Shown: piece by piece, positions 8,669-23,411 of the stretch
Numbering within the stretch: position 1 is the first letter of the stretch
Layout of the letters: the number at the start of each line of letters is the position of its first letter
Source: an uncultured Mollicutes bacterium
GTDB taxonomy: Bacteria > Bacillota_I > Bacilli_A > Acholeplasmatales > Anaeroplasmataceae
DNA length: 32,268 bases
Assembly (NCBI GenBank): GCA_947177025.1
Contig: CAMWSQ010000006.1
Span: 1-32,268, forward strand
Direction: 5' to 3'
Program-made: the position numbers and the translations under genes
The notes under the pieces: model-generated
Told to the model about the DNA's origin: nothing
Database searches by the model: none
Seen by the model: the letters and a program-made list of their open reading frames with translations, nothing else

Positions 8669-11600
8669 TTATTCCTTATATCCCCAGTTTACAATAATGG
8701 AATTGTAGTCTTCTCTTGCCCAATATGAACTCCAATTACTAGGCTTTGAATTGGCTTCACAATTAATTACCAACTTATTGCAATTATCAAAGGCATAAGA
8801 TTCTATGCTTGTTACGCTAGCTGGAATTATTATACTCTTTAGTTTTTTACAACTATCAAAGGCAGATCTCCCTATGCTTGTAACACTATCTGGGATTATT
8901 ACTGATGTAATAGTATTAAATCTATTAAATTGATAGTTTCCTATTTCCGTTATTGTATTTGGTATTTCTATACTTGTTACTTCTTCCCATTCGTTATTAC
9001 TATTTCTTAGATAAAAATGATTTGAATTAAAGGAAAAAATAGAATTATTTAAACTAATATTACACCAGTCTTCTATGGTTCCTTCATAGAAGATACTAGT
9101 TATTTTGTCACTCCAATAAAATGCTGAACTATCTATAGTTGTGATACTAGCAGGAAGTGTGATGCTTGTTAGATTACTACAATAAGAGAATGTATCTTTC
9201 CCTATGCTTGTTATACCACTTGGAAGTATTATGCTTTCTAGACTACTACAATTAGAGAAGGCCTTATTACCTATGCTTGTAACACTATCTGGGATTGTTA
9301 TTGATGTAATAGTATTGAATCTATTAAATTGATAGTTTCCTATTTCCGTTATTGTATTTGGTATTTCTATACTTGTTACTTCTTCCCATTCGTTATTACT
9401 ATTTCTTAGATAAAAATGATTTGAATTAGAGGAAAAAATAGAATCATTTAAACTAATATTACACCAGTCTTCTATGGTTCCTTCATAGAAGATATTAGTT
9501 ATTTTGTAACTACAGAGAAATGCTGAACTGTCTATAGCTGTGATACTAGCAGGAAGTGTGATACTTGTTAGATTACTACAAAAATAGAATGTATTGTATC
9601 CTATGTCTGTTATACCACTTGGAATTATTATGCTTTCTAGACTACTACAATTAGAGAAGGCGGATGTCCCTATATTTGTGATATTATCTGGGATTGTAAT
9701 ATTTGTTAGATTACTACAACCATAAAAAGCAGAGTTTCCTATACTTGTGACATTAACTGGAATTATGATCTGTGCGAGATTGCTACATCCATAGAAGGCA
9801 CTATTTCCTATGCTTGTAACACTATCTGGGATTGCTATTGAAGTAACATTATTAAATCTTTTAAATCGATAGTTTCCTATTTCCGTTATTGTATTTGGTA
9901 TATCTATACTTGTTATTTCTTCCCATTCATTATTACTATTTCTTAAATAAAAATGATTTGAATTAGAGGAAAAAATAGAATTATTTAAACTAATATTACA
10001 CCAGTCTTCTATAGTTCCTTCATAGTAGATATTAGTTATATTGTCACTCCAATGAAATGCTGAACTATCTATAGCTGTAATACTGGCAGGAAATGTGATG
10101 CTTGTTAGATTACTACAAGAATAGAATGTATCTTCCCCTATGCTTGGTATACCACTTGGAAGTATGATGCTTTCTACACTTTCACATCCCCAGAAGGCAT
10201 TATTTGGTATTCTTTCTCCTCCAGTAACGATTACTTCTTTCAAACTGCTTGGTATACCTGTCGAACTATAATGTGTAAAACCTGTTGACCCCTCTGCCCC
10301 GAAGATACACCCAAAATGTGTATTTCTTTTTTCTGTTATACTTTGTCCTACAAATGGAATGGTCAGAGATTTAATGCCATTAAATCCATAAAGAGCATAG
10401 TTTCCTATTTCTGTTATCGTATCTGGTATGATTACTTCTTCTATATTTGTTGCTTCTTCCCATTCATTTTCACTATTTCTTAAATAAAAATGACTTGCAT
10501 ATAGCATTGGCGTACTATTTGATTGTATTTTACACCAATCTAATAAAGTTCCTTCATAGTAAGTATTTGTGAGACTGCTACAACCAGAGAAGGCAGTTGT
10601 TCCAATTCTTGTTATACTTGATGGAATTATAATATCTGTGAAACTACTACAGCCATAAAAAGCAGATGTTCCTATTCCTGTTACATTAACAGGAATTATG
10701 ATATCTGTGAGATTGCTACAATTAAAGAAGAGATAGTTTTCTATAGTTGTTAAATCCTTTGGAAGGATTGCACTTATTAGACTAGAACACTCAAAAAATG
10801 CATGTTGTCCTATGCTTGTGACACTGTCTGGAATTGTTATATTCTTAAGATTGCTACAATAAGAGAAGGCATATTGCCCTATTGCTGTTATTTCATTTGG
10901 AATAATTATCTCTTCCAAACTTTTTAAATCTTCCCATTCATTATTGTTATTTCTTAAATAGAAATGACTTGCATACTCCATTGGATTTGAAGATGTACTA
11001 CCTAATTGCATTTTACACCAATCTACTAGAGTTCCTTCATAATAAACACTCGTAAGTCTTTCGCAGAAATCAAATGCATATCCTTCTATACTTGTCACAC
11101 TATGTGGAATTGTGATTTTTTCTATATAGTAACACTCACTAAAGGCAGCTGTTCCTATACTATTTCCTCCTTTAATAGTTACTTCTTTTAGGCTAGTTGG
11201 GACATATTTAGAATTAAAAGAAAGTGAATCTGCTCCAAAGAGATATCCAAGGTATGTATTATTTGTTTGGTCAATATTTGCTCCTACAAATGGGATAGTT
11301 ATACTTGTCACCTTGCTACATGCCGTAAATACAGATAGTCCTATGCTTTGAACGCTTTCTGGAACAATTATAGTTGCGACATTATTAAATCCGTAGAATT
11401 GAAAGTCTCCTATTTTTTTTATCGTATTTGGTATCTCTACACTTGTGACTTCTTCCCATTCATTAATGCTATTCTTTAAATGGAAATGACTTGCATATGA
11501 CATTGGATTTGAAGATGTACTACTAAAGCTAAGATTACACCAATCTTCCAACGTTCCTTCATAATAGACATTAGTTAGATTGCTGCAGCCTCCAAAAACA

Positions 11601-12394
11601 TATTCTCCTAAGTTAACAACACTATATGGAACTACTATATTTTTTAAATCAGCACAATTAGAAAATGCAAAATCCCCTATACTTGTCACACTATCTGGTA
11701 TTATAATACTTGTTATATTATTACAACTTGAAAATGCAAAATCTTCTATACTTACAACTGGAAGATTATTATAAGAAGATAAAACATATATTTCAGAGTC
11801 TATTGCAGTGCCTATTCCTATAACACTATAACTAGTTCCACCTGCATTTAGTTCATATTGTAATCCACGGGTATGTTCTAATACTTGTATTGATTCTGTT
11901 TGTTTTGCTCCACAAATACAAGTTCTTTCTTTTGTTCCCTCCTCAGTAAAAGTAGGTTCTATAATAATAACCCATTGCCCAAATGAGTGATTTACTTCTT
12001 CTGTTTTCTTACCACAACTACATATTTGCCAATGCATAGTTTCTGTTTTGCCATACGACGTAAAAGAACAAATATGCTCTTCTTGTTTTACTGAAATTGA
12101 TTGCGTTTCTTTATATTCACAGACACTGCAGACTCTTTCTTCTAAGCCTTCAGTTGAAGTCGTTGCTTCTTTTATGATATTCCAATCACCAAATTTGTGA
12201 TTTTCTTCTGGAGATTTTTTGCCACAACTACATACCTGCCAATGCTTTGTTGAATTGCTTTTATAATCACCAGAAAAAGAACAAATATGCTCATTCTTAT
12301 CATTATTTAAATCATTATCATCAGAATTATTACAAGATGGTAAAATGAATAATCCTAGTAAAATAGTTAAAAGAAATATACTAATTTTTTTCAT
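8669..12394 (-). CDS. BspA-like leucine-rich-repeat (LRR_5) surface lipoprotein
   Basis: Lipoprotein signal MKKISIFLLTILLGLFILPSC; many 23-aa units such as IPDSVTSIGNSAFYGCSNLTNIT; recurrent YYEGTLEDWCNISL insert; N-terminal HWQVCSCGKK/ERVCSVC repeats. Start at 12394 behind GGAGG. Confidence 0.92.
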   Translation of the reverse strand: MKKISIFLLTILLGLFILPSCNNSDDNDLNNDKNEHICSFSGDYKSNSTKHWQVCSCGKKSPEENHKFGDWNIIKEATTSTEGLEERVCSVCEYKETQSISVKQEEHICSFTSYGKTETMHWQICSCGKKTEEVNHSFGQWVIIIEPTFTEEGTKERTCICGAKQTESIQVLEHTRGLQYELNAGGTSYSVIGIGTAIDSEIYVLSSYNNLPVVSIEDFAFSSCNNITSIIIPDSVTSIGDFAFSNCADLKNIVVPYSVVNLGEYVFGGCSNLTNVYYEGTLEDWCNLSFSSTSSNPMSYASHFHLKNSINEWEEVTSVEIPNTIKKIGDFQFYGFNNVATIIVPESVQSIGLSVFTACSKVTSITIPFVGANIDQTNNTYLGYLFGADSLSFNSKYVPTSLKEVTIKGGNSIGTAAFSECYYIEKITIPHSVTSIEGYAFDFCERLTSVYYEGTLVDWCKMQLGSTSSNPMEYASHFYLRNNNNEWEDLKSLEEIIIPNEITAIGQYAFSYCSNLKNITIPDSVTSIGQHAFFECSSLISAILPKDLTTIENYLFFNCSNLTDIIIPVNVTGIGTSAFYGCSSFTDIIIPSSITRIGTTAFSGCSSLTNTYYEGTLLDWCKIQSNSTPMLYASHFYLRNSENEWEEATNIEEVIIPDTITEIGNYALYGFNGIKSLTIPFVGQSITEKRNTHFGCIFGAEGSTGFTHYSSTGIPSSLKEVIVTGGERIPNNAFWGCESVESIILPSGIPSIGEDTFYSCSNLTSITFPASITAIDSSAFHWSDNITNIYYEGTIEDWCNISLNNSIFSSNSNHFYLRNSNNEWEEITSIDIPNTITEIGNYRFKRFNNVTSIAIPDSVTSIGNSAFYGCSNLAQIIIPVNVTSIGNSAFYGCSNLTNITIPDNITNIGTSAFSNCSSLESIIIPSGITDIGYNTFYFCSNLTSITLPASITAIDSSAFLCSYKITNIFYEGTIEDWCNISLNDSIFSSNSNHFYLRNSNNEWEEVTSIEIPNTITEIGNYQFNRFNTITSITIPDSVTSIGNKAFSNCSSLESIILPSGITSIGKDTFSYCSNLTSITLPASITTIDSSAFYWSDKITSIFYEGTIEDWCNISLNNSIFSFNSNHFYLRNSNNEWEEVTSIEIPNTITEIGNYQFNRFNTITSVIIPDSVTSIGRSAFDSCKKLKSIIIPASVTSIESYAFDNCNKLVINCEANSKPSNWSSYWAREDYNSIIVNWGYKE
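8876..10150 (-). repeat. Long imperfect direct repeats inside the LRR gene (3 copies)
   Basis: Copies begin at about 8876, 9275 and 9812 (GCTTGTAACACTATCTGGGATT...). Offsets are 399 and 537 nt; the 138-nt difference is two 69-nt (23-aa) LRR units. Confidence 0.85.
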
Positions 12395-12721
12395 ATTTAC
12401 ATACCTCCACATATTCTCTATTAAGAAAAAATTATGAAATGTTAATTATATACTCAAATTTTAACACATTATAGCAAAAATAACAATATGAATCATAGTA
12501 TTTCAATTCCAACCATTTAGTACATAAAAGTAGGCTACATATACATTTTCATGCTTATACTTTATAACTTAAGTCTATAGGAATTATAGAATTTTCTGTA
12601 TCTGTAATTTTAAAACATATTAAAAATATCATTTGAAAGATATCTATAAAAATGAAAAACGTCGTCTTACAAATAGTGATAATTTAATTGAAATAAATCA
12701 GCAACTTACTTCCTATAAAAA

Positions 12722-13908: not shown

Positions 13909-13939
13909 ATGAGGAAGTATGTCAAGCCTTCCTCATTTT
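13909..13939 (-). terminator. Rho-independent terminator overlapping the end of the DUF2188 gene
   Basis: AAATGAGGAAG...CCTTCCTCATTT inverted repeat at the 3' end of the minus-strand unit. Confidence 0.5.
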
Positions 13940-14125
13940 GCCATCTAGGCCATGGAGCATTACTGTACTACCATCGTTCTTATTCTTACATAAGCTTTTC
14001 GCATAAGCCAATGCCTCAGCCTGCGTATCAAATAATTTAATTACTCTAGTAGAGCCTTGAATAAATACCTTCCACTCTCTTCCATTGTTGTCTCTTTTAG
14101 AAACATGATAAATTGTCTTAGCCAT
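13922..14125 (-). CDS. DUF2188-like small protein
   Basis: YHVSKRDNNGREWKVFIQGSTRVIKLFDTQAEALAYAKSLCKNKNDGSTVMLHGLDGKMR. Confidence 0.8.
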   Translation of the reverse strand: MAKTIYHVSKRDNNGREWKVFIQGSTRVIKLFDTQAEALAYAKSLCKNKNDGSTVMLHGLDGKMRKA

Positions 14126-14127
14126 TG

Positions 14128-14829
14128 TTACCTCCTCTTTCTTCCAGATAGTATAAATTCTTCTTCCATTTTTTCTGGATTTTTTAATGCATACTCTTGA
14201 TGTTCTTCCTCCGCTGGGTAAAATACACTTTCCTCACAAAGATCAACATATACTTTCTGGTTTGTACTCTTTTCTAAGTTTTGAATATAAGAATATGCTA
14301 TTTGTTTTTCTTCTAAATTTGAAGTATAGATACCACAAGTATAGTTTTCTCCTCTATCAATGAATTGACCTTCACCATCAAATGGATCAATATGAGAAAA
14401 ATAAATTTCTAACAAAGTCTCATAGGACACCTTAGAGGAATCATATTCAATGAGAATTGCTTCTCTATGATGAGTTTTTAAGCCTTTTACCTCTTCATAT
14501 GTTGGACAAATCTCTTTGCCACCAATAAAGCCACTGACAACCTTTTTTACTCCCTCACAGGAATAGAATGGTTCTGCAATACACCAAAAACAGCCTCCCG
14601 CAAAAACTGCAGTTTGAAGAGTAGAAACATAATGATATTCCACTTGATTAACTGAATAGTCAAATCCTAATTTTAAATATAAGTGATTCGAAATTGGATT
14701 TAATGTATCTACATATAAAATAAGGGGTTTTCTTTTGTTCAAGTATTTTTTGACAAAGTTTTGTGACAATTCTTGCTGAATATCCTTTTCCTCTATAGGC
14801 TGGCTTAGTATATACATGACTGATTGCAC
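14128..14829 (-). CDS. msrA: Peptide methionine sulfoxide reductase A, carrying the GNAT C-terminus at its N-terminus
   Basis: TAVFAGGCFWCIAEPF ... FIGG ... HHREAILIEYD ... PAEEEHQEYALKNP. The first ~60 residues include LYVDTLNPISNHLYLKLGFDY, which is GNAT C-terminal sequence. Confidence 0.9.
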   Translation of the reverse strand: MQSVMYILSQPIEEKDIQQELSQNFVKKYLNKRKPLILYVDTLNPISNHLYLKLGFDYSVNQVEYHYVSTLQTAVFAGGCFWCIAEPFYSCEGVKKVVSGFIGGKEICPTYEEVKGLKTHHREAILIEYDSSKVSYETLLEIYFSHIDPFDGEGQFIDRGENYTCGIYTSNLEEKQIAYSYIQNLEKSTNQKVYVDLCEESVFYPAEEEHQEYALKNPEKMEEEFILSGRKRR

Positions 14830-15463
14830 AAATAGTATTAAAGTTTCTTACCAAAGATGCAATACTTACGATTTTACCATCCTCAAAGTATGCATAAACG
14901 TTTCCTTCTTTACCCCTCAATCTTTCACAATATTCTTCTACTGGCTTTTCTTGATGCATAGCTTCTAATTCAAATTCTTGATAGCACTTTGCAAGCTCTA
15001 ATACATGCTCTGACGTGCAAGGATACACACCTGTTGTATCCACAGGATTCAATTTTCTTAAAACCATTATCTTCATAGAATGAATTAGTTGAATTTCTCC
15101 ATCTTTTCTTTCTTGATAAGCTTTTAAGAAGGCTTCTGTAGCTTCTTGTTCTCCTAGCATATTTTCTACAACTAAGTTCATGCTAGATACTACATTTGCA
15201 GCGTATTCACAAAGATTTGCAGAACCAAACAAAAGTGCATTATAGGGTTCCACCTTTAAAAGTAATAAAAATTCATTTTCACTTTTAAAGGAGAATGCAT
15301 AGTTTTTTTGATTAAAAAAAGTATAGCTTTTCGCATTGAAAAAGAAAAATGCTGTTTCTATCGTTGTTTCTAAGGAATTATTCAAATATTTTTCATTCTC
15401 CTGAAGAAACTGCATTCCATCAAGATAAACTTTATATGTTATATTGCTTTTTAAACCTTTCAT
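14660..15463 (-). CDS. GNAT-family N-acetyltransferase, apparently frameshifted near its end
   Basis: ISHVYTKPAYRGKGYSARIVTKLCQKILEQKKTP is a GNAT acetyl-CoA motif; the expected continuation is in the 14128..14829 frame. Confidence 0.8.
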   Translation of the reverse strand: MKGLKSNITYKVYLDGMQFLQENEKYLNNSLETTIETAFFFFNAKSYTFFNQKNYAFSFKSENEFLLLLKVEPYNALLFGSANLCEYAANVVSSMNLVVENMLGEQEATEAFLKAYQERKDGEIQLIHSMKIMVLRKLNPVDTTGVYPCTSEHVLELAKCYQEFELEAMHQEKPVEEYCERLRGKEGNVYAYFEDGKIVSIASLVRNFNTICAISHVYTKPAYRGKGYSARIVTKLCQKILEQKKTPYFICRYIKSNFESLIFKIRI

Positions 15464-15848
15464 AGAAATACTTGATAATCCCCTTTCTCTTTATAATACC
15501 AATATACATTCCTCTATCATCAATTATAGGAATAAAGTTTTGTTCAAAGGATAACTTTATAACCTCTTGAATAGGACAACTGATATCTAATGCCTTATAT
15601 GGACGATATTTCTCAATACAATCTACACATTGCGATTCTGCAAGTTCAACATCAAAATGACTATTATTCTTAATATATCTTAATATGTCTCCTTCAGACA
15701 AAGTTGCCATATAATGTCCTTCCTTATCTATTAATGGAACAACTGTAAACTTATAACGATCAAATTTTTCTAAAGCCTGTCTGATTGTGGATTTAGAATC
15801 TAAATAAAAAGTTTTGTCCTTGGGAGTTAATAAAGCAATAATATTCAT
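15432..15848 (-). CDS. CBS-domain-pair protein
   Basis: TIRQALEKFDRYKFTVVPLIDKEGHYMATLSEGDILRYI and PIQEVIKLSFEQNFIPIIDDRGMYIGIIKRKGIIKYF. Confidence 0.85.
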   Translation of the reverse strand: MNIIALLTPKDKTFYLDSKSTIRQALEKFDRYKFTVVPLIDKEGHYMATLSEGDILRYIKNNSHFDVELAESQCVDCIEKYRPYKALDISCPIQEVIKLSFEQNFIPIIDDRGMYIGIIKRKGIIKYFYERFKKQYNI

Positions 15849-15973: not shown

Positions 15974-17245
15974 TCATTTATTGTCTAAAATAAGCTTGGC
16001 AACCTGTCTTCCACAATCCATAGCCTCTACTACTGTTTTAGCTCCAAGTACAATATCTCCTCCAGCATAAATGCCTTCTATATTCGTTTTAAGCCCATCA
16101 CATACTAAATATTTATGATCTGTAGCAAGAACATGTTTATCATATATGTCCTCTGGATCTTGCCCAATAGCGCTAATAATAGAATCACAAAGAATGGTAC
16201 AATATTTCCCCGTACCAACTGGACGTTTTCTACCAGATGCATCAGGAGCACCTAAAGTCATTTCTTCAACTTTTATTCCTTCCACCTTTTCTTCTCCAAG
16301 AACCTCCACTGGATTATTTAAAAATTGGAAAATAACTCCCTCTGCTTCTGCATCCTTAATTTCTTGCTTAGTAGCAGGAGCCTCTAGTCTGCTTCTTCGA
16401 TAAACAACTAAAACCTTTGCTCCATCTTTTCTTGCACATCTTGCAGCATCCATAGCAACATTTCCTGCACCAATCACAACTACTGTACCAGAAAGCTGAG
16501 GACGATTGCCCTGTCCAAGCTTAATATCCAAATTGACAGCCTTTAAATAATCTAAGGCATCATATACACCTGGCAAAGATTCATTTGGAATTCCCAATTG
16601 TTTTGACTTAGTTAATCCAATAGATATGAATACAGCATCAAATTGTTTTTTTAAATCAAAAATTTCAGATTCTTTGAGTTTCGTATTAAAATGAATAACA
16701 GCTCCTAAATCCTCAAGCTCTGCCGCAATTCTTGTGATTTTAGTATAGTCTAAACGATAGCTTGGAATCCCATAAGTTAAAACACCACCAATGTAGTATT
16801 CTGCTTCAAAAATTTCTACACTGCATCCTGTCTTTAACAGCTCCTTTGCACAAGAAAGTCCTGCAGGTCCAGCACCAATGATGGCTACTTTTTGGGAAGA
16901 CCTTTTTTCTATTTTTATAGGCTTGTTCATATGCTCAACAACATAGCGTTCTAACTTGCCACAATCAATCGGTTTACTTTGAATTCCAAGAACACAATGT
17001 CCAACACATTGACGCTCATGTGGACAAACAATCGAACAAATATAGGGAAGATCAGAACAGGAATTTATAATTTCATACGCTTCTTCTAAACGATTTACCT
17101 TGATTTCTTTAATAAAATCTCGAATACGCATACGTGTAGGACATCCCGTTTCACAACGAGGATTCTTACAAGATAAACAACGCAGTGCTTCTATTCTTGC
17201 CTCATCTTCTGTCATGCCTTCTGGCATAGACCATTTTTCATTCAT
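15974..17245 (-). CDS. GltD-like NAD(P)H-dependent FAD/Fe-S oxidoreductase (glutamate synthase small-subunit family)
   Basis: CLSCKNPRCETGCPTRMRIRDFI, VCPHERQCVGHC, VAIIGAGPAGLSCAKEL, VVVIGAGNVAMDAARCARKDGAKV, IYAGGDIVLGAKTVVEAMDCGR. Confidence 0.9.
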   Translation of the reverse strand: MNEKWSMPEGMTEDEARIEALRCLSCKNPRCETGCPTRMRIRDFIKEIKVNRLEEAYEIINSCSDLPYICSIVCPHERQCVGHCVLGIQSKPIDCGKLERYVVEHMNKPIKIEKRSSQKVAIIGAGPAGLSCAKELLKTGCSVEIFEAEYYIGGVLTYGIPSYRLDYTKITRIAAELEDLGAVIHFNTKLKESEIFDLKKQFDAVFISIGLTKSKQLGIPNESLPGVYDALDYLKAVNLDIKLGQGNRPQLSGTVVVIGAGNVAMDAARCARKDGAKVLVVYRRSRLEAPATKQEIKDAEAEGVIFQFLNNPVEVLGEEKVEGIKVEEMTLGAPDASGRKRPVGTGKYCTILCDSIISAIGQDPEDIYDKHVLATDHKYLVCDGLKTNIEGIYAGGDIVLGAKTVVEAMDCGRQVAKLILDNK

Positions 17246-18245
17246 CTTTATTCTCTCCTTGATATGCTTTGTAAATTAAGCTTGCATCCGCTAATGCGAT
17301 TGCAACACAAGCCTCTAAAACGACCTGAGCTCTTAAAATTATCGCTGCATCATGACGACCTTCAATTCTCAATTCTTCAATTCTTCCACTTTCTTTGTTA
17401 AATGTTTCCTGAGGAATACTGATAGAAGGTGTTGGTTTTACAAAAACATTTACAACCAATGGATTCCCATTGGAAACCCCACCATTGATTCCACCATTAT
17501 GATTTGTTTTTGTAGTTCCCTTTTCATCTATTATGCAATCATTAAATTCGCTTCCTCTAAGACGGGCTCCATCAAATCCTATGCCAAAGGAAACTCCTTT
17601 AACACCACCAATAGAAAATAAAAGATGAGAAATAGTGGATTCTAAAGAGTCAAAATAAGGCTCTCCCAATCCAACAGGAATCTGATCGGCTTGAATTTGA
17701 ACAATTCCTCCAACAGAATCCTTTTCCTCTACTGCTTTTTCTAATATACTCTTAAACTGAGTTTGATCTGTAACCCCACCAAGATTTGTAATCTTTGTAG
17801 AAAAACTGATAGTTTTTAATATTTTTTTTGCAACAACTCCAGCAGCCACAATTCCAAGAGTTAATCTTCCCGAAAAAGAGCCACCACCTCTATAATCCTG
17901 ATATCCTTTATATTTGACATTTGCCACAAAATCAGCATGAGAAGGTCTAGGATGACTTACTAGCTTAGAATAATCCTTACTTTTTGTATTCGTATTTAGA
18001 AAACGAAGGAGAATAGCTCCACCTGTAGTATAGCCTTTAAACACTCCAGATTCTATAATAATTTCATCAGGTTCTATTCTAGGAGTAGTTCCAAGACCAC
18101 CAGATTTTCTTCTTGCTAAATCAGCAGCAAAATCTGCTTCTTTTAAAGAAATTCCTGCTGGAACTCCATCCAATAAAACACCTACAGAATTTCCATGACT
18201 TTCCCCATATATATTAAGTTGAAATAGTTTTCCTATGTGATTCAT
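17238..18245 (-). CDS. aroC: Chorismate synthase
   Basis: YGESHGNSVGVLLDGVPAGI, RPSHADFVANVKYKGYQDYRGGGSFSGRLT, GRHDAAIILRA. Confidence 0.96.
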   Translation of the reverse strand: MNHIGKLFQLNIYGESHGNSVGVLLDGVPAGISLKEADFAADLARRKSGGLGTTPRIEPDEIIIESGVFKGYTTGGAILLRFLNTNTKSKDYSKLVSHPRPSHADFVANVKYKGYQDYRGGGSFSGRLTLGIVAAGVVAKKILKTISFSTKITNLGGVTDQTQFKSILEKAVEEKDSVGGIVQIQADQIPVGLGEPYFDSLESTISHLLFSIGGVKGVSFGIGFDGARLRGSEFNDCIIDEKGTTKTNHNGGINGGVSNGNPLVVNVFVKPTPSISIPQETFNKESGRIEELRIEGRHDAAIILRAQVVLEACVAIALADASLIYKAYQGENKDE

Positions 18246-18263
18246 ATTGAACCCTCCTGATTT

Positions 18264-19025
18264 TTATTTAATATCTATATATGCTACAACAGCTTCATAT
18301 GGAATAGAAATTGATTGTCCCTGCCATATTTCTTCTGCCTTTAATGCCTGCATAACCAGCATATATAATCCATTGATTTTAGAATGAGCATCCTTTAGTA
18401 ATTGTGTTTCTAAGGGGTTGAAGATAATATCAATAACCTTGCCTGATTTCTCGGCAATTTCCTTAGACACTGGACTAACTCCTACATTTGGAAACATTCC
18501 AACTGGAGTTGTATTCACTAATACATCAATATTTTTCGTTTCAAGTTCCTTATAACTAATATCATTCTTTTTAGGAGTTCTAGACACAAAATGACAAATT
18601 CCGCCTAAATCCTGTAATGCTTGGTTGACTGCCAAGGAAGCTCCACCTGTGCCTAAAATGTAACATTCTTTATTTTGAACATCAACCTTATAGTACTTTA
18701 AAGTTTCTAAAAAACCATCATAATCCGTATTTGTTCCATATGCCTTTCCATTTTTGACATAGACTGTATTAACACTACCAATAGCTTTGGCTTTTTCATC
18801 TATGCAATCTAAGTACTGCATAATTGTTTTTTTGTAAGGAATCGTCACATTAAAACCAGAATAATATCCCTGTTTTAACTGTTCTATGTATTTTTCCAAC
18901 TCTTCTTCCTTGCATTCTAAAAGAGAATAGGTTGCCTCTTGATGTAAAGATTGAAAAACAAAGCTATGAATGATTTTTGAATAACTATGAGAAAGCTTTT
19001 CTCCTAATAATCCATACTGTTTCAT
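18264..19025 (-). CDS. aroE: Shikimate dehydrogenase
   Basis: YGLLGEKLSHSYSKIIHSF, GFNVTIPYKKTIMQYLD, GTNTDYDGFLETL, LVNTTPVGMFP. Confidence 0.95.
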   Translation of the reverse strand: MKQYGLLGEKLSHSYSKIIHSFVFQSLHQEATYSLLECKEEELEKYIEQLKQGYYSGFNVTIPYKKTIMQYLDCIDEKAKAIGSVNTVYVKNGKAYGTNTDYDGFLETLKYYKVDVQNKECYILGTGGASLAVNQALQDLGGICHFVSRTPKKNDISYKELETKNIDVLVNTTPVGMFPNVGVSPVSKEIAEKSGKVIDIIFNPLETQLLKDAHSKINGLYMLVMQALKAEEIWQGQSISIPYEAVVAYIDIK

Positions 19026-19291
19026 TTCATCAAATCCTTTTGATATTCTTTAGAAGATTTTAATACTCCTTCAAAGAAAATACGATAATAGTCTTCAAGA
19101 TCTTTATTATTTAGCAATGAAACATTCTTTTCAATAATGTTTTGTTCTCTAGATGCATCTAATACAGGAAGCTGATTCTCTAGCTTATATTCTGCAACCA
19201 TTTGAACTGCATGCATTCTTTCTTCAAAAAGCTTTAGCATTGCTTCATCAATTTGATTTATTTTATTTCTTGCATCATCTAATTTACTCAT
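19022..19291 (-). CDS. Chorismate mutase (AroQ type)
   Basis: 89 aa: LDDARNKINQIDEAMLKLFEERMHAVQMVAEYKLENQLPVLDASREQ. Confidence 0.9.
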   Translation of the reverse strand: MSKLDDARNKINQIDEAMLKLFEERMHAVQMVAEYKLENQLPVLDASREQNIIEKNVSLLNNKDLEDYYRIFFEGVLKSSKEYQKDLMK

Positions 19292-20549
19292 AGGTTACAT
19301 CTCCTCCTAATGCCTCAAATACTTCCCAAAAATTCGGATAGGATTTAGAAACACATTCTGCATTCAAAATAGTTAAATCCTCATCCATCTTTAAGCTTGC
19401 CATTGCGAGTGCCATTGCAACTCTATGATCATTGTGAGAATCTACTACACCTCCATGAAGTTTCTTTGTTCCATAAATCTTCATTGTATCAGGTTCTTCA
19501 TCAATCTTAGCACCTAACTTCTCTAGTTCTTCCTTCATGCAGGTAACTCTATCACATTCCTTGATTCTTAAGCGAGAAACGTGTGTAAAATAAGAAACTC
19601 CTTCTGATACACTGGCTAAAACAGTAAGTGCAGGTCCTAAGTCAGGAGACTGAGAAAAATCAATCGTTGTTCCCTTAGTTTGACTAGGTAAACAATATAA
19701 AAGCTCATGATCAAACTGAATATTTCCATTTAAAGAAGAAATATCCTCTATGATTTTTTTATCTCCTTGATAAGAGATAGGATTCATTCCTTTTAGCTGG
19801 ATGTCTGCTCCCATTGCTCCTGCAATTAAGAAGAATGCAGTTTGAGAATAGTCTCCTTCTACTGTATAGTTATAAGAATGATAGCTTTGATTTCCTTTGA
19901 TTTCAAAGGAGGTATATTCATGATTTATAATTTCAATTCCAAATTTAGATAAGATATCTAAAGTCAAATCTACATATCCTTTAGATTCTAAAGTGCCTAT
20001 AATCTCTATTACAGAATCTCCATTTAATAAGGGTAAAGCAAATAATAGTCCTGTAATAAACTGTGAGGAAATATTTCCCTGAACCTCATATTTTCCTGGA
20101 ACGAGACCTCCAGTTGTTTTTAAAGGTAAATATGCATCCTCAGGATGTGTAAACTGTATTCCTAGCTTTTGAAATATTTCAAAATAAGAATCTAGTGGTC
20201 TTTTCACCAAATGATTTCTTCCTATAAATTCCATAGGTGTTGGATTGACTAATGCAATAGGAATTAAAAAACGCAAAGTAGAGCCAGATTCGTTTGCATC
20301 AATCACATTATCTGTTCTTTTCACTTTAGAGCCTTTAATCCTTAGTGTAGTTCCTTCTACCTCTATTTTAGCACCTAAGGCTTTCATTGCAGAAATAGTT
20401 GCTAGAATATCTTTAGAAAACATGACATTAGAAATTACACTTTCCTCTTCACTTAATGAAGCTGCAATAATTGCACGATGAGATAAGCTTTTTGAAGGAG
20501 GTATAGACACAATCCCCTTTAATTTTTTGGGATGAATGGTTACATTCAT
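19284..20549 (-). CDS. aroA: 3-phosphoshikimate 1-carboxyvinyltransferase
   Basis: PPSKSLSHRAIIAASLS, NESGSTLRFLIPIAL, RLRIKECDRVTCMKEEL, DSHNDHRVAMALAMA. Confidence 0.96.
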   Translation of the reverse strand: MNVTIHPKKLKGIVSIPPSKSLSHRAIIAASLSEEESVISNVMFSKDILATISAMKALGAKIEVEGTTLRIKGSKVKRTDNVIDANESGSTLRFLIPIALVNPTPMEFIGRNHLVKRPLDSYFEIFQKLGIQFTHPEDAYLPLKTTGGLVPGKYEVQGNISSQFITGLLFALPLLNGDSVIEIIGTLESKGYVDLTLDILSKFGIEIINHEYTSFEIKGNQSYHSYNYTVEGDYSQTAFFLIAGAMGADIQLKGMNPISYQGDKKIIEDISSLNGNIQFDHELLYCLPSQTKGTTIDFSQSPDLGPALTVLASVSEGVSYFTHVSRLRIKECDRVTCMKEELEKLGAKIDEEPDTMKIYGTKKLHGGVVDSHNDHRVAMALAMASLKMDEDLTILNAECVSKSYPNFWEVFEALGGDVTYE

Positions 20550-21571
20550 TTTATCAGCTCCTTTAAATGCTTTTCTTCAACTGGATATAAGAAGGCTTGC
20601 CCAATCTTAGAAAGTAAAACCATATTAATTTTACCTGCCAAATTCTTTTTATCCTTTGCAATTTCTAAAATATATTCCTTGTAGCTTGGTTCCTCACAAG
20701 GTAAATCATATTGCTTTATAATTTCCTTAAGTTCTTTATAACAATATTCTTCTGTCAATCCTAAATCCATACCAAAACGGAGAACCATCAGCATACCTAA
20801 AGCAACTGCCTCACCATGCTTTAACCCTAACTTTAACTCAATAGCATGTCCAAAGGTATGTCCAAAGTTCAACAGCATTCTTTCCTTTGTATCAAACTCA
20901 TCCTTTTCAACAATACTTTGTTTTACACATAAGCTTTGATAAATAATCTCTTCATCAACCTCTGGTTTATGCTTTAGCATTTCAAATAGCTTTTCATTTC
21001 CAATGGCAGCATGTTTAATAAGCTCTCCCATACCATTATTCCATTCTCTTTTAGATAACGTATGTAATACCTTCGGATCTATTAAAACCAGCTTAGGCTG
21101 TTTAAAACAACCCAATATATTTTTACGTTCATAAAAATCAATGCCTGTTTTCCCACCAATAGAGGAATCCATCTGGCTAAGCAATGAAGTAGGCACACTC
21201 ACATAAGGTAAGCCACGATAGAGAGTTGCGGCAACAAAGCCTGTTAAATCTCCTATTACTCCACCACCCAAGGCTAAAAGTAATTCATTTCTACGGATAT
21301 CTTTATCTAAAAGCTTTTGGACAACAGATGCATACATTTCTATGCTTTTGGAAGCTTCTCCATGTGGAATAACTACACTTTCTACTTCATAGTCTTTTAA
21401 ACTATTCTTTACTGCTTCTAAATATAACTTTTCAACAATATCATCTGTAATAATATAAATTTTTTTATTGTGATAAACTTCCTTAATATAAAAAGAAAGA
21501 TGAAACAAAATGTCATCTTCTATAAAAATGTTATAGGAATTCGTCTTTAATTGAATTCTTAATTGTTTCAT
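20546..21571 (-). CDS. aroB: 3-dehydroquinate synthase
   Basis: LLALGGGVIGDLTGFVAATLYRGLPYVSVPTSLLSQMDSSIGGKTGID, NFGHTFGHAIE, HGEAVALGM. Confidence 0.96.
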   Translation of the reverse strand: MKQLRIQLKTNSYNIFIEDDILFHLSFYIKEVYHNKKIYIITDDIVEKLYLEAVKNSLKDYEVESVVIPHGEASKSIEMYASVVQKLLDKDIRRNELLLALGGGVIGDLTGFVAATLYRGLPYVSVPTSLLSQMDSSIGGKTGIDFYERKNILGCFKQPKLVLIDPKVLHTLSKREWNNGMGELIKHAAIGNEKLFEMLKHKPEVDEEIIYQSLCVKQSIVEKDEFDTKERMLLNFGHTFGHAIELKLGLKHGEAVALGMLMVLRFGMDLGLTEEYCYKELKEIIKQYDLPCEEPSYKEYILEIAKDKKNLAGKINMVLLSKIGQAFLYPVEEKHLKELIK

Positions 21572-22398
21572 TTTTCCATCTTCCTTCTAATTTGTGTAGA
21601 TTGATTAAATAGTTTTTTCAATGTATCTTTATCATTGTACTTTAAGGCATTTTTTAAAATATCAAGTTCTGCCTCAAAACTAGAGATATGTTCTAATAGA
21701 TACTCTTTATTTTCTAAAAACAATTCACTCCAAAGAGCGTCATTAATCATTGCAATTCTCGTTAAATCACGATAAGAGTCTCCAATAAATTTTACAGTAT
21801 CTGCATCATGATCACTATTGACCAAAGATACAGCAATTGCGTGAGTGAGCTGACTAGTAAAGCCAATCATTTGGTCATGACGTTCAATTGAAATCGTTGT
21901 AATTCTTCCAAAATCTAAATCATGTGCAATTCCTATTAAAACTTCTTCTGCGGTTCTATTAACAGAGTCTATTGGTGTAATTAAAAAATTTGCTCCTCTA
22001 AATATTTTGTAATCAGCAAATTGAATTCCTATCTTTTCTTTTCCTGCCATAGGATGATGGGATAAATAAGTTGCCTTTCCTGCAAGTAAGGTTGCTTTTC
22101 TTACAAATGAACTTTTTACTCCACATACATCTGTAATGATTTGATTTTCTTTAAATAAAGCATTATGCTGTTTTAAAAAATCTAAAATAGCCTGTGGATA
22201 GATTGCAAGAATAATACAATCACACTCTGATAAAATCGAAAAATCATCAATAAATCCATCTTTTATAAACTTGTTTTCTTTAGCATACTGAATGACATCT
22301 ACACTTTGGTCTATCCCATAAATTTCATGTCCCTTTAAGGATAGTCCCATAGCATAGGACCCACCAATCAGTCCTAGTCCAACAATACAAATTTTCAT
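21568..22398 (-). CDS. tyrA: Prephenate dehydrogenase
   Basis: IVGLGLIGGSYAMGLSLKGHEIYGID, DVCGVKSSF, HPMAGKEKIG, QLTHAIAVSL. Confidence 0.92.
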   Translation of the reverse strand: MKICIVGLGLIGGSYAMGLSLKGHEIYGIDQSVDVIQYAKENKFIKDGFIDDFSILSECDCIILAIYPQAILDFLKQHNALFKENQIITDVCGVKSSFVRKATLLAGKATYLSHHPMAGKEKIGIQFADYKIFRGANFLITPIDSVNRTAEEVLIGIAHDLDFGRITTISIERHDQMIGFTSQLTHAIAVSLVNSDHDADTVKFIGDSYRDLTRIAMINDALWSELFLENKEYLLEHISSFEAELDILKNALKYNDKDTLKKLFNQSTQIRRKMEK

Positions 22399-23411
22399 TA
22401 TAGCTTTTTCCCAACAATTGGTGCAATTAATCTTAGCTGCTGCATCATATGATCAAAACGCTCAGGCTTTAGGCTTTGTGCACCATCACATAATGCACAT
22501 TCTGGATTGTTGTGGACCTCAACAATAATTCCATCAGCTCCTACAGCTAATGCTGCCTTAGACAAATCTTCTACCATAGACCACTTACCAGCTGCATGAG
22601 AAGGATCTACAATAACAGGTAAATGAGATAATTCCTTCACTGCAAGTACAGCAGATAAATCTAGTGTATTTCTAGTATATTTTTCAAAAGTACGAATTCC
22701 TCTTTCACATAAAATAACCTTATCATTTCCGCCAGCTAAAATGTACTCAGCTGCCATCAACCATTCTTCTATTGTTGCAGAAAGACCACGCTTTAATAAA
22801 ATAGGCTTATCAATTTTTCCAAGAGCCTTTAACAAATGGAAATTTTGCATATTACGAGCGCCGACCTGAATGATATCTACATCCTTAACAAATCGTTCAA
22901 TCATATCCTCAGACTGAATTTCTGTAATGATTGGCAAACGTGTTTCCTTTCTTGCTTCCATTAATAAATCTAAACCCTCAAGTTCTAATCCTTGAAATGC
23001 ATAAGGGCTTGTTCTTGGCTTATATGCTCCACCTCTTAAAATATGTGCTCCACTTTCCTTTACACTTTGAGCAACACTTACAATTTGATCATGATTTTCA
23101 ACAGAGCATGGACCTGCCATAACCGTAAAGTTTCCTCCACCAATCTTTACACCACACACATCAATAATGGTAGGCTCTGGATGAAATGCCTTAGAAGCCT
23201 TTTTATATGGAACCTGAATTCTTGTGATAGTATCTACGCCTGGCAATGCATAGACATCACTATCCATTGTTTTCGTAGTATCTCCAATAATACCGATGAC
23301 TTTTACATCTCCACTACTTGCATCCTTTATTTCAAGACCCCTTGTCTTAAAATACTCTATAATATTTTGATATTCCTTCTTTGTTATGGAATCCTTCATC
23401 TTAATAATCAT
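22398..23411 (-). CDS. aroF: 3-deoxy-7-phosphoheptulonate synthase (type I beta-like)
   Basis: VMAGPCSVENHDQ, LRGGAYKPRTSPYAFQGL, ILCERGIRTFEKYTRNTLDLSAV, VIVDPSHAAGKW. Confidence 0.95.
   Translation of the reverse strand: MIIKMKDSITKKEYQNIIEYFKTRGLEIKDASSGDVKVIGIIGDTTKTMDSDVYALPGVDTITRIQVPYKKASKAFHPEPTIIDVCGVKIGGGNFTVMAGPCSVENHDQIVSVAQSVKESGAHILRGGAYKPRTSPYAFQGLELEGLDLLMEARKETRLPIITEIQSEDMIERFVKDVDIIQVGARNMQNFHLLKALGKIDKPILLKRGLSATIEEWLMAAEYILAGGNDKVILCERGIRTFEKYTRNTLDLSAVLAVKELSHLPVIVDPSHAAGKWSMVEDLSKAALAVGADGIIVEVHNNPECALCDGAQSLKPERFDHMMQQLRLIAPIVGKKL

Follow-up and report, generated by a model that had tools for sequence, protein, structure and literature searches.

MsrA is known to occur in one chain with other domains, and a review of Msr fusions describes partners that include MsrB, thioredoxin, glutaredoxin, AANH and ThyX-like domains, with GNAT not found among them (PMC6211008). 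A functional connection between Msr repair and a GNAT enzyme has been described in Salmonella, where the GNAT enzyme NatB acts poorly on N-terminal methionine sulfoxide and reduction by MsrA/MsrB restores N-terminal acetylation (PMC12299546). Like the known MsrAB, MsrBA, Trx-MsrAB and MsrA-Grx proteins (PMC6211008), the relatives of the locus considered here contain a full MsrA domain with the GCFWC motif fused in one chain; unlike in those proteins, MsrA is joined to a GNAT acetyltransferase and not to MsrB, Trx or Grx. Our literature search for a described GNAT-MsrA fusion found none, although this is no proof of novelty. With NatB of Salmonella and YfmK of B. subtilis the likeness is one of GNAT family, and the dependence of NatB on Msr repair for its use of N-terminal methionine (PMC12299546) may be why the two enzymes became fused. 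Compared with these N-terminal acetyltransferases, the GNAT described below is a putative acetyltransferase by sequence, to which solved GNATs are only distantly similar (best structure match, 3ec4 at 1.8e-09).

The window, by which we mean the whole 32,268-nucleotide stretch of DNA that was analysed, comes from an uncultured Mollicutes bacterium of the Anaeroplasmataceae. The features that matter for the argument are as follows.

15432..15848, minus strand: upstream CBS-domain gene; overlaps the GNAT start by 32 nt; a neighbour conserved in the genus
14660..15463, minus strand: GNAT frame, 267 aa; N-terminal domain without a name at aa 1 to ~125, GNAT Pfam stretch at aa 166-245, final ~20 codons out of frame past the shift
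14128..14829, minus strand: second (MsrA) frame, 233 aa; homology only from about 14716 down; GNAT C-terminus (LYVDTLNPISNHLYLKLGFDYSVNQVEYHYVS) followed by a complete MsrA domain (AVFAGGCFWC...SGRKRR)
14131..14613, minus strand: MsrA (PMSR) domain with GCFWC catalytic motif; PF01625 at 3.8e-48 over aa 73-221 of the 233-aa ORF, the lower coordinate being set by rounding to where the ORF ends
14724..14727, minus strand: CCCC run, proposed in the initial annotation as the shift site; disfavoured (641.5 bits)
14717..14720, minus strand: TTTT run (AAAA on the plus strand), the place best supported for the net +1 change of frame (650.4 bits); relatives read KTPYLYVD here
13922..14125, minus strand: DUF2188 gene, downstream; its counterparts in G008, which has an intact fusion, and in G001, which has a GNAT without MsrA, lie at the same position and are 98.5% identical

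In the ORF list of the window, the GNAT frame (15463-14660) and the MsrA frame (14829-14128) overlap on the minus strand and together make up a 444-codon protein with a net +1 shift inside it. The initial annotation had proposed exactly this, i.e. that the 1336-nt span less one base would encode an intact 444-aa fusion, and its arithmetic is right (1336 - 1 = 1335 nt, or 444 aa plus a stop). The domain assignments are clear on both sides of the shift. The first ORF is placed in the GNAT families by Pfam (PF00583, 2.5e-09, 37.9 bits against a cut-off of 20.7), and the second matches the PMSR/MsrA profile PF01625 at 164 bits (cut-off 23.7) and TIGR00401 at 138.8 bits (cut-off 108.1); the N-terminal domain of the fusion has no Pfam match. 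The GNAT ORF does end, as had been suggested, in a tail foreign to the family; its last ~20 residues (FICRYIKSNFESLIFKIRI) are out of frame, and the GNAT alignment stops there. In other words, the C-terminal part of the GNAT domain is not complete in one frame; the reading departs after K-T-P-Y, and the remainder lies in the other frame, which holds the usual GNAT C-terminus, LYVDTLNPISNHLYLKLGF, and is continuous into MsrA. In relatives this segment is in one frame with the rest.

Two other parts of the window may be mentioned in passing. Judged from sequence alone, positions 8669-12412 encode a 1247-aa lipoprotein-like protein with many leucine-rich (BspA-like) repeats, and on the minus strand 17238-23411 looks, by the appearance of its genes, like a compact aromatic amino acid (shikimate) pathway run. 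Additionally, the DUF2188 protein (13922-14125, 67 aa) is 98.5% identical between species and the adjoining GNAT only about 50%, an unusually strong conservation for a small protein.

A search for homologous fusions in relatives found intact ones. Among ten other species of the genus that we compared, the arrangement N-domain-GNAT-MsrA is uninterrupted in five (G004, G007, G008, G009 and G010), a GNAT alone stands at the same locus in three (G001, G005 and G006), where it ends naturally after the same C-terminus, and two have no match. One-frame fusions are also present in two further genera of the family (G027 and G016). The fusions measure 436-471 aa, stop to stop, in the five congeners and G027; that of G016 (L012) is 540 aa long, with about 80 extra residues C-terminal of MsrA. 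The gene order CBS - fusion - DUF2188 in G008 is that of the window, and in G001 the order is CBS, GNAT, DUF2188, with MsrA missing. Since relatives carry the fusion in one frame and the closest shares the gene order as well, the simplest reading is that the fusion is ancestral at this locus, as the initial annotation had supposed, that the copy in the window is a broken one, and that some sister species have lost MsrA.

The wider family takes several forms: GNAT-MsrA, GNAT alone, N-domain-MsrA and, elsewhere, MsrA-GNAT in reversed order. For example, seven loci of another genus of the same family (g6; L121-L127) and one of genus g5 (L128) encode MsrA with a short N-terminal stretch and no GNAT, in ORFs of 273-297 aa, stop to stop, and at five g6 loci (G025, G061, G067, G076 and G077) the GNAT-MsrA profile matches part of this stretch through its N-terminal domain. 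A single ORF of a Lachnospiraceae MAG, RGIG7055, encodes MsrA and, after it, a GNAT domain (L029:3148-4083), apparently an independent joining of the same two activities. Three further candidates (L030, L034 and L066) were rejected as GNAT-MsrA fusions; they are MsrA with unrelated upstream sequence.

How well has the broken gene been preserved? With invariant columns defined on six aligned intact fusions, the second frame of the window keeps 60 of 60 invariant residues (54/54 in MsrA and 6/6 in the GNAT C-terminus), the catalytic GCFWC motif among the features present, and the first frame keeps 27 of 28, the exception being a V to I change. With the six aligned relatives in one frame and the invariant columns kept, the match of the second frame is not chance, and the earlier proposal that this frame continues the GNAT domain into MsrA holds. 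A cysteine in the motif N-Y-T-C, 85 residues past the catalytic one, is common to the window and all six aligned fusions, and near the C-terminus no cysteine is conserved among these sequences; in this the fusion family differs from MsrA (PF01625, TIGR00401) and its known fusions, and the N-Y-T-C cysteine is, from its position in the alignment, a candidate resolving cysteine. MsrA identity is 70% between the window and G008, 69% between the window and G010, and 70% between G008 and G010; for the GNAT part, the window is 51% identical to G001, and G008 46%. These comparisons with G008, G010 and G001 give no sign of accelerated evolution in the window gene. Decay would be expected in a pseudogene of any age and there is none here outside the break, which must then be either very young or not real.

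The position of the break differs from that first proposed. A CCCC run is indeed present at 14724-14727, but it is not the best place for the frame switch. Over the junction, the relatives read K-T-P-Y-L-Y-V-D or close variants; in the window the GNAT frame supplies K-T-P-Y and the MsrA frame L-Y-V-D, which puts the change of frame right after the tyrosine codon, inside TTTT (14720-14717). A shift at CCCC was rejected, as it would yield K-T-L-I-L-Y-V-D, which is present in no relative, and relatives keep the P-Y codons after CCCC. Using a profile built from nine relatives, we also scored each possible one-base skip at positions 660-800 of the 1336 nt, and the scan gives its maximum, 650.4 bits, at the T run, as against 641.5 at CCCC. 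The leucine codon at the shift site is variable among relatives (CTA, CTG, TTA, TTG and CTT).

We are highly confident that the locus is a broken orthologous fusion whose lesion is not regulatory, being either a very recent pseudogenising indel or a consensus error. Both of these had been listed in the initial annotation and both stand. Of the two, a very recent indel in the strain is the reading that we lean towards, if only slightly; our apportioning of belief between it and error is a judgement, not a measurement. That the fusion is unbroken in the real genome and the draft consensus has one T too many is a serious contender, to which we would give somewhat less than an even chance. The draft genome to which the window belongs, as contig 6, has 111 contigs and 1.34 Mb and is 74.6% complete with 3.3% contamination, both halves of the gene are preserved at invariant positions, and all related GNAT-MsrA fusions examined are in one frame; all of this is in keeping with an error. 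Against it, a four-base run is short for a homopolymer error, and coding frameshifts are scarce in the assembly. A two-way comparison between about 980 kb of the window's genome and 1.26 Mb of G010, over about 191,000 aligned residues, gave five raw candidates in the former. On inspection two of them proved to be upstream leaders and a third an antisense ORF, so that the GNAT-MsrA gene and the C-terminus of a GH13-like protein remained; G010 had one raw candidate, at the N-terminus of a gene. The GH13-like case (G000:C21, L158, about 18500-18660) is likely a second coding frameshift, at about 18560, near GGGGG, and affects the last ~35 residues. With one other convincing coding frameshift in about 980 kb, a generally error-ridden assembly was rejected as the cause; two isolated frameshifts are compatible with occasional consensus errors and with a normal load of real broken genes. 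Interrupted coding sequences (ICDS) of bacteria are known to stem from authentic mutations as well as from sequencing errors (PMC1852416). In those of Mycobacterium smegmatis (PMC1852416), as in our case, a single indel divides a conserved gene between two frames while its orthologues elsewhere are intact; the GNAT-MsrA break is read from a consensus sequence. The lesion reading has its own difficulties; neither slippage nor short-read error has a strong hot spot in a run of four bases, and full preservation of both halves would be equally expected if some mechanism still yielded the fused protein.

The regulatory options raised earlier fare much worse. Programmed +1 ribosomal frameshifting, by which one gene would give GNAT alone and GNAT-MsrA, would account for two intact, conserved frames, and both products are plausible proteins given that the genus has GNAT-alone species and fusion species. 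However, the fusions of seven relatives are in one frame and need no shift, the codons at the site vary rather than being conserved, the switch shows no stop, obvious hungry codon or known +1 signal, and the fold of the downstream 80 nt is ordinary relative to shuffles (z = -0.43, for pseudoknot-free folds). Moreover, the first-frame product would be without the GNAT C-terminus, whereas true stand-alone GNATs end after it. We consider such programmed frameshifting very improbable, and we would give just as little credence to a +1 state that has become fixed in the species, with low-level frameshifting still making the fused enzyme at a controlled ratio; if true, the latter would add a new, lineage-specific case of programmed frameshifting, in an enzyme of redox repair and acetylation. 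A phase-variable contingency gene that switches through slipped-strand mispairing at C4 or T4 would be in keeping with a lesion within or beside two short homopolymers, but high-rate slippage normally occurs at runs far longer than four bases, C4 and T4 are the only repeats here, and the run is not kept in relatives, which makes phase variation more improbable still. Least credible of all is that GNAT and msrA are two natural overlapping genes that were never fused. G001, G005 and G006 do have stand-alone GNATs at this locus, but those proteins carry the very C-terminus that in the window lies in the MsrA frame; the one-frame fusions in five other species of the genus and the G008 orthologue in the same gene order contradict it, and no start or ribosome site in the window suits a separate MsrA. 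Before the MsrA domain, the one standard start codon that follows the GNAT stop in frame is a GTG (14643-14641), at a distance of 17 nt from that stop. The closest AGGA precedes this GTG by about 21 nt, so an independent MsrA start is unlikely.

On the preferred reading of a recent mutation or consensus error, the locus is the orthologous copy of a bifunctional fusion gene (N-terminal domain, GNAT acetyltransferase and MsrA) that is intact in sister species, interrupted by the net gain of one base in TTTT just past the K-T-P-Y codons. Translation of the gene as written would give a GNAT without its C-terminal part and with a junk tail, and MsrA would not be reached. No second msrA and no msrB were found in the window's genome, a draft that is 74.6% complete.

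In closing, the break itself is ordinary, and its main lesson is that an overlap of GNAT and MsrA frames in a draft genome should not be taken for regulation; the fusion family is the more interesting subject. In the intact enzyme, MsrA would be expected to repair S-methionine sulfoxide, for example at N-terminal methionine, and the GNAT domain may acetylate the repaired or a related amino group; one chain with both activities could carry out repair and then acetylation of N-terminal or free methionine. The presence of GNAT and MsrA in one chain here, and in reverse order in a Lachnospiraceae MAG, suggests that sulfoxide repair and amino-group acetylation may share a substrate.
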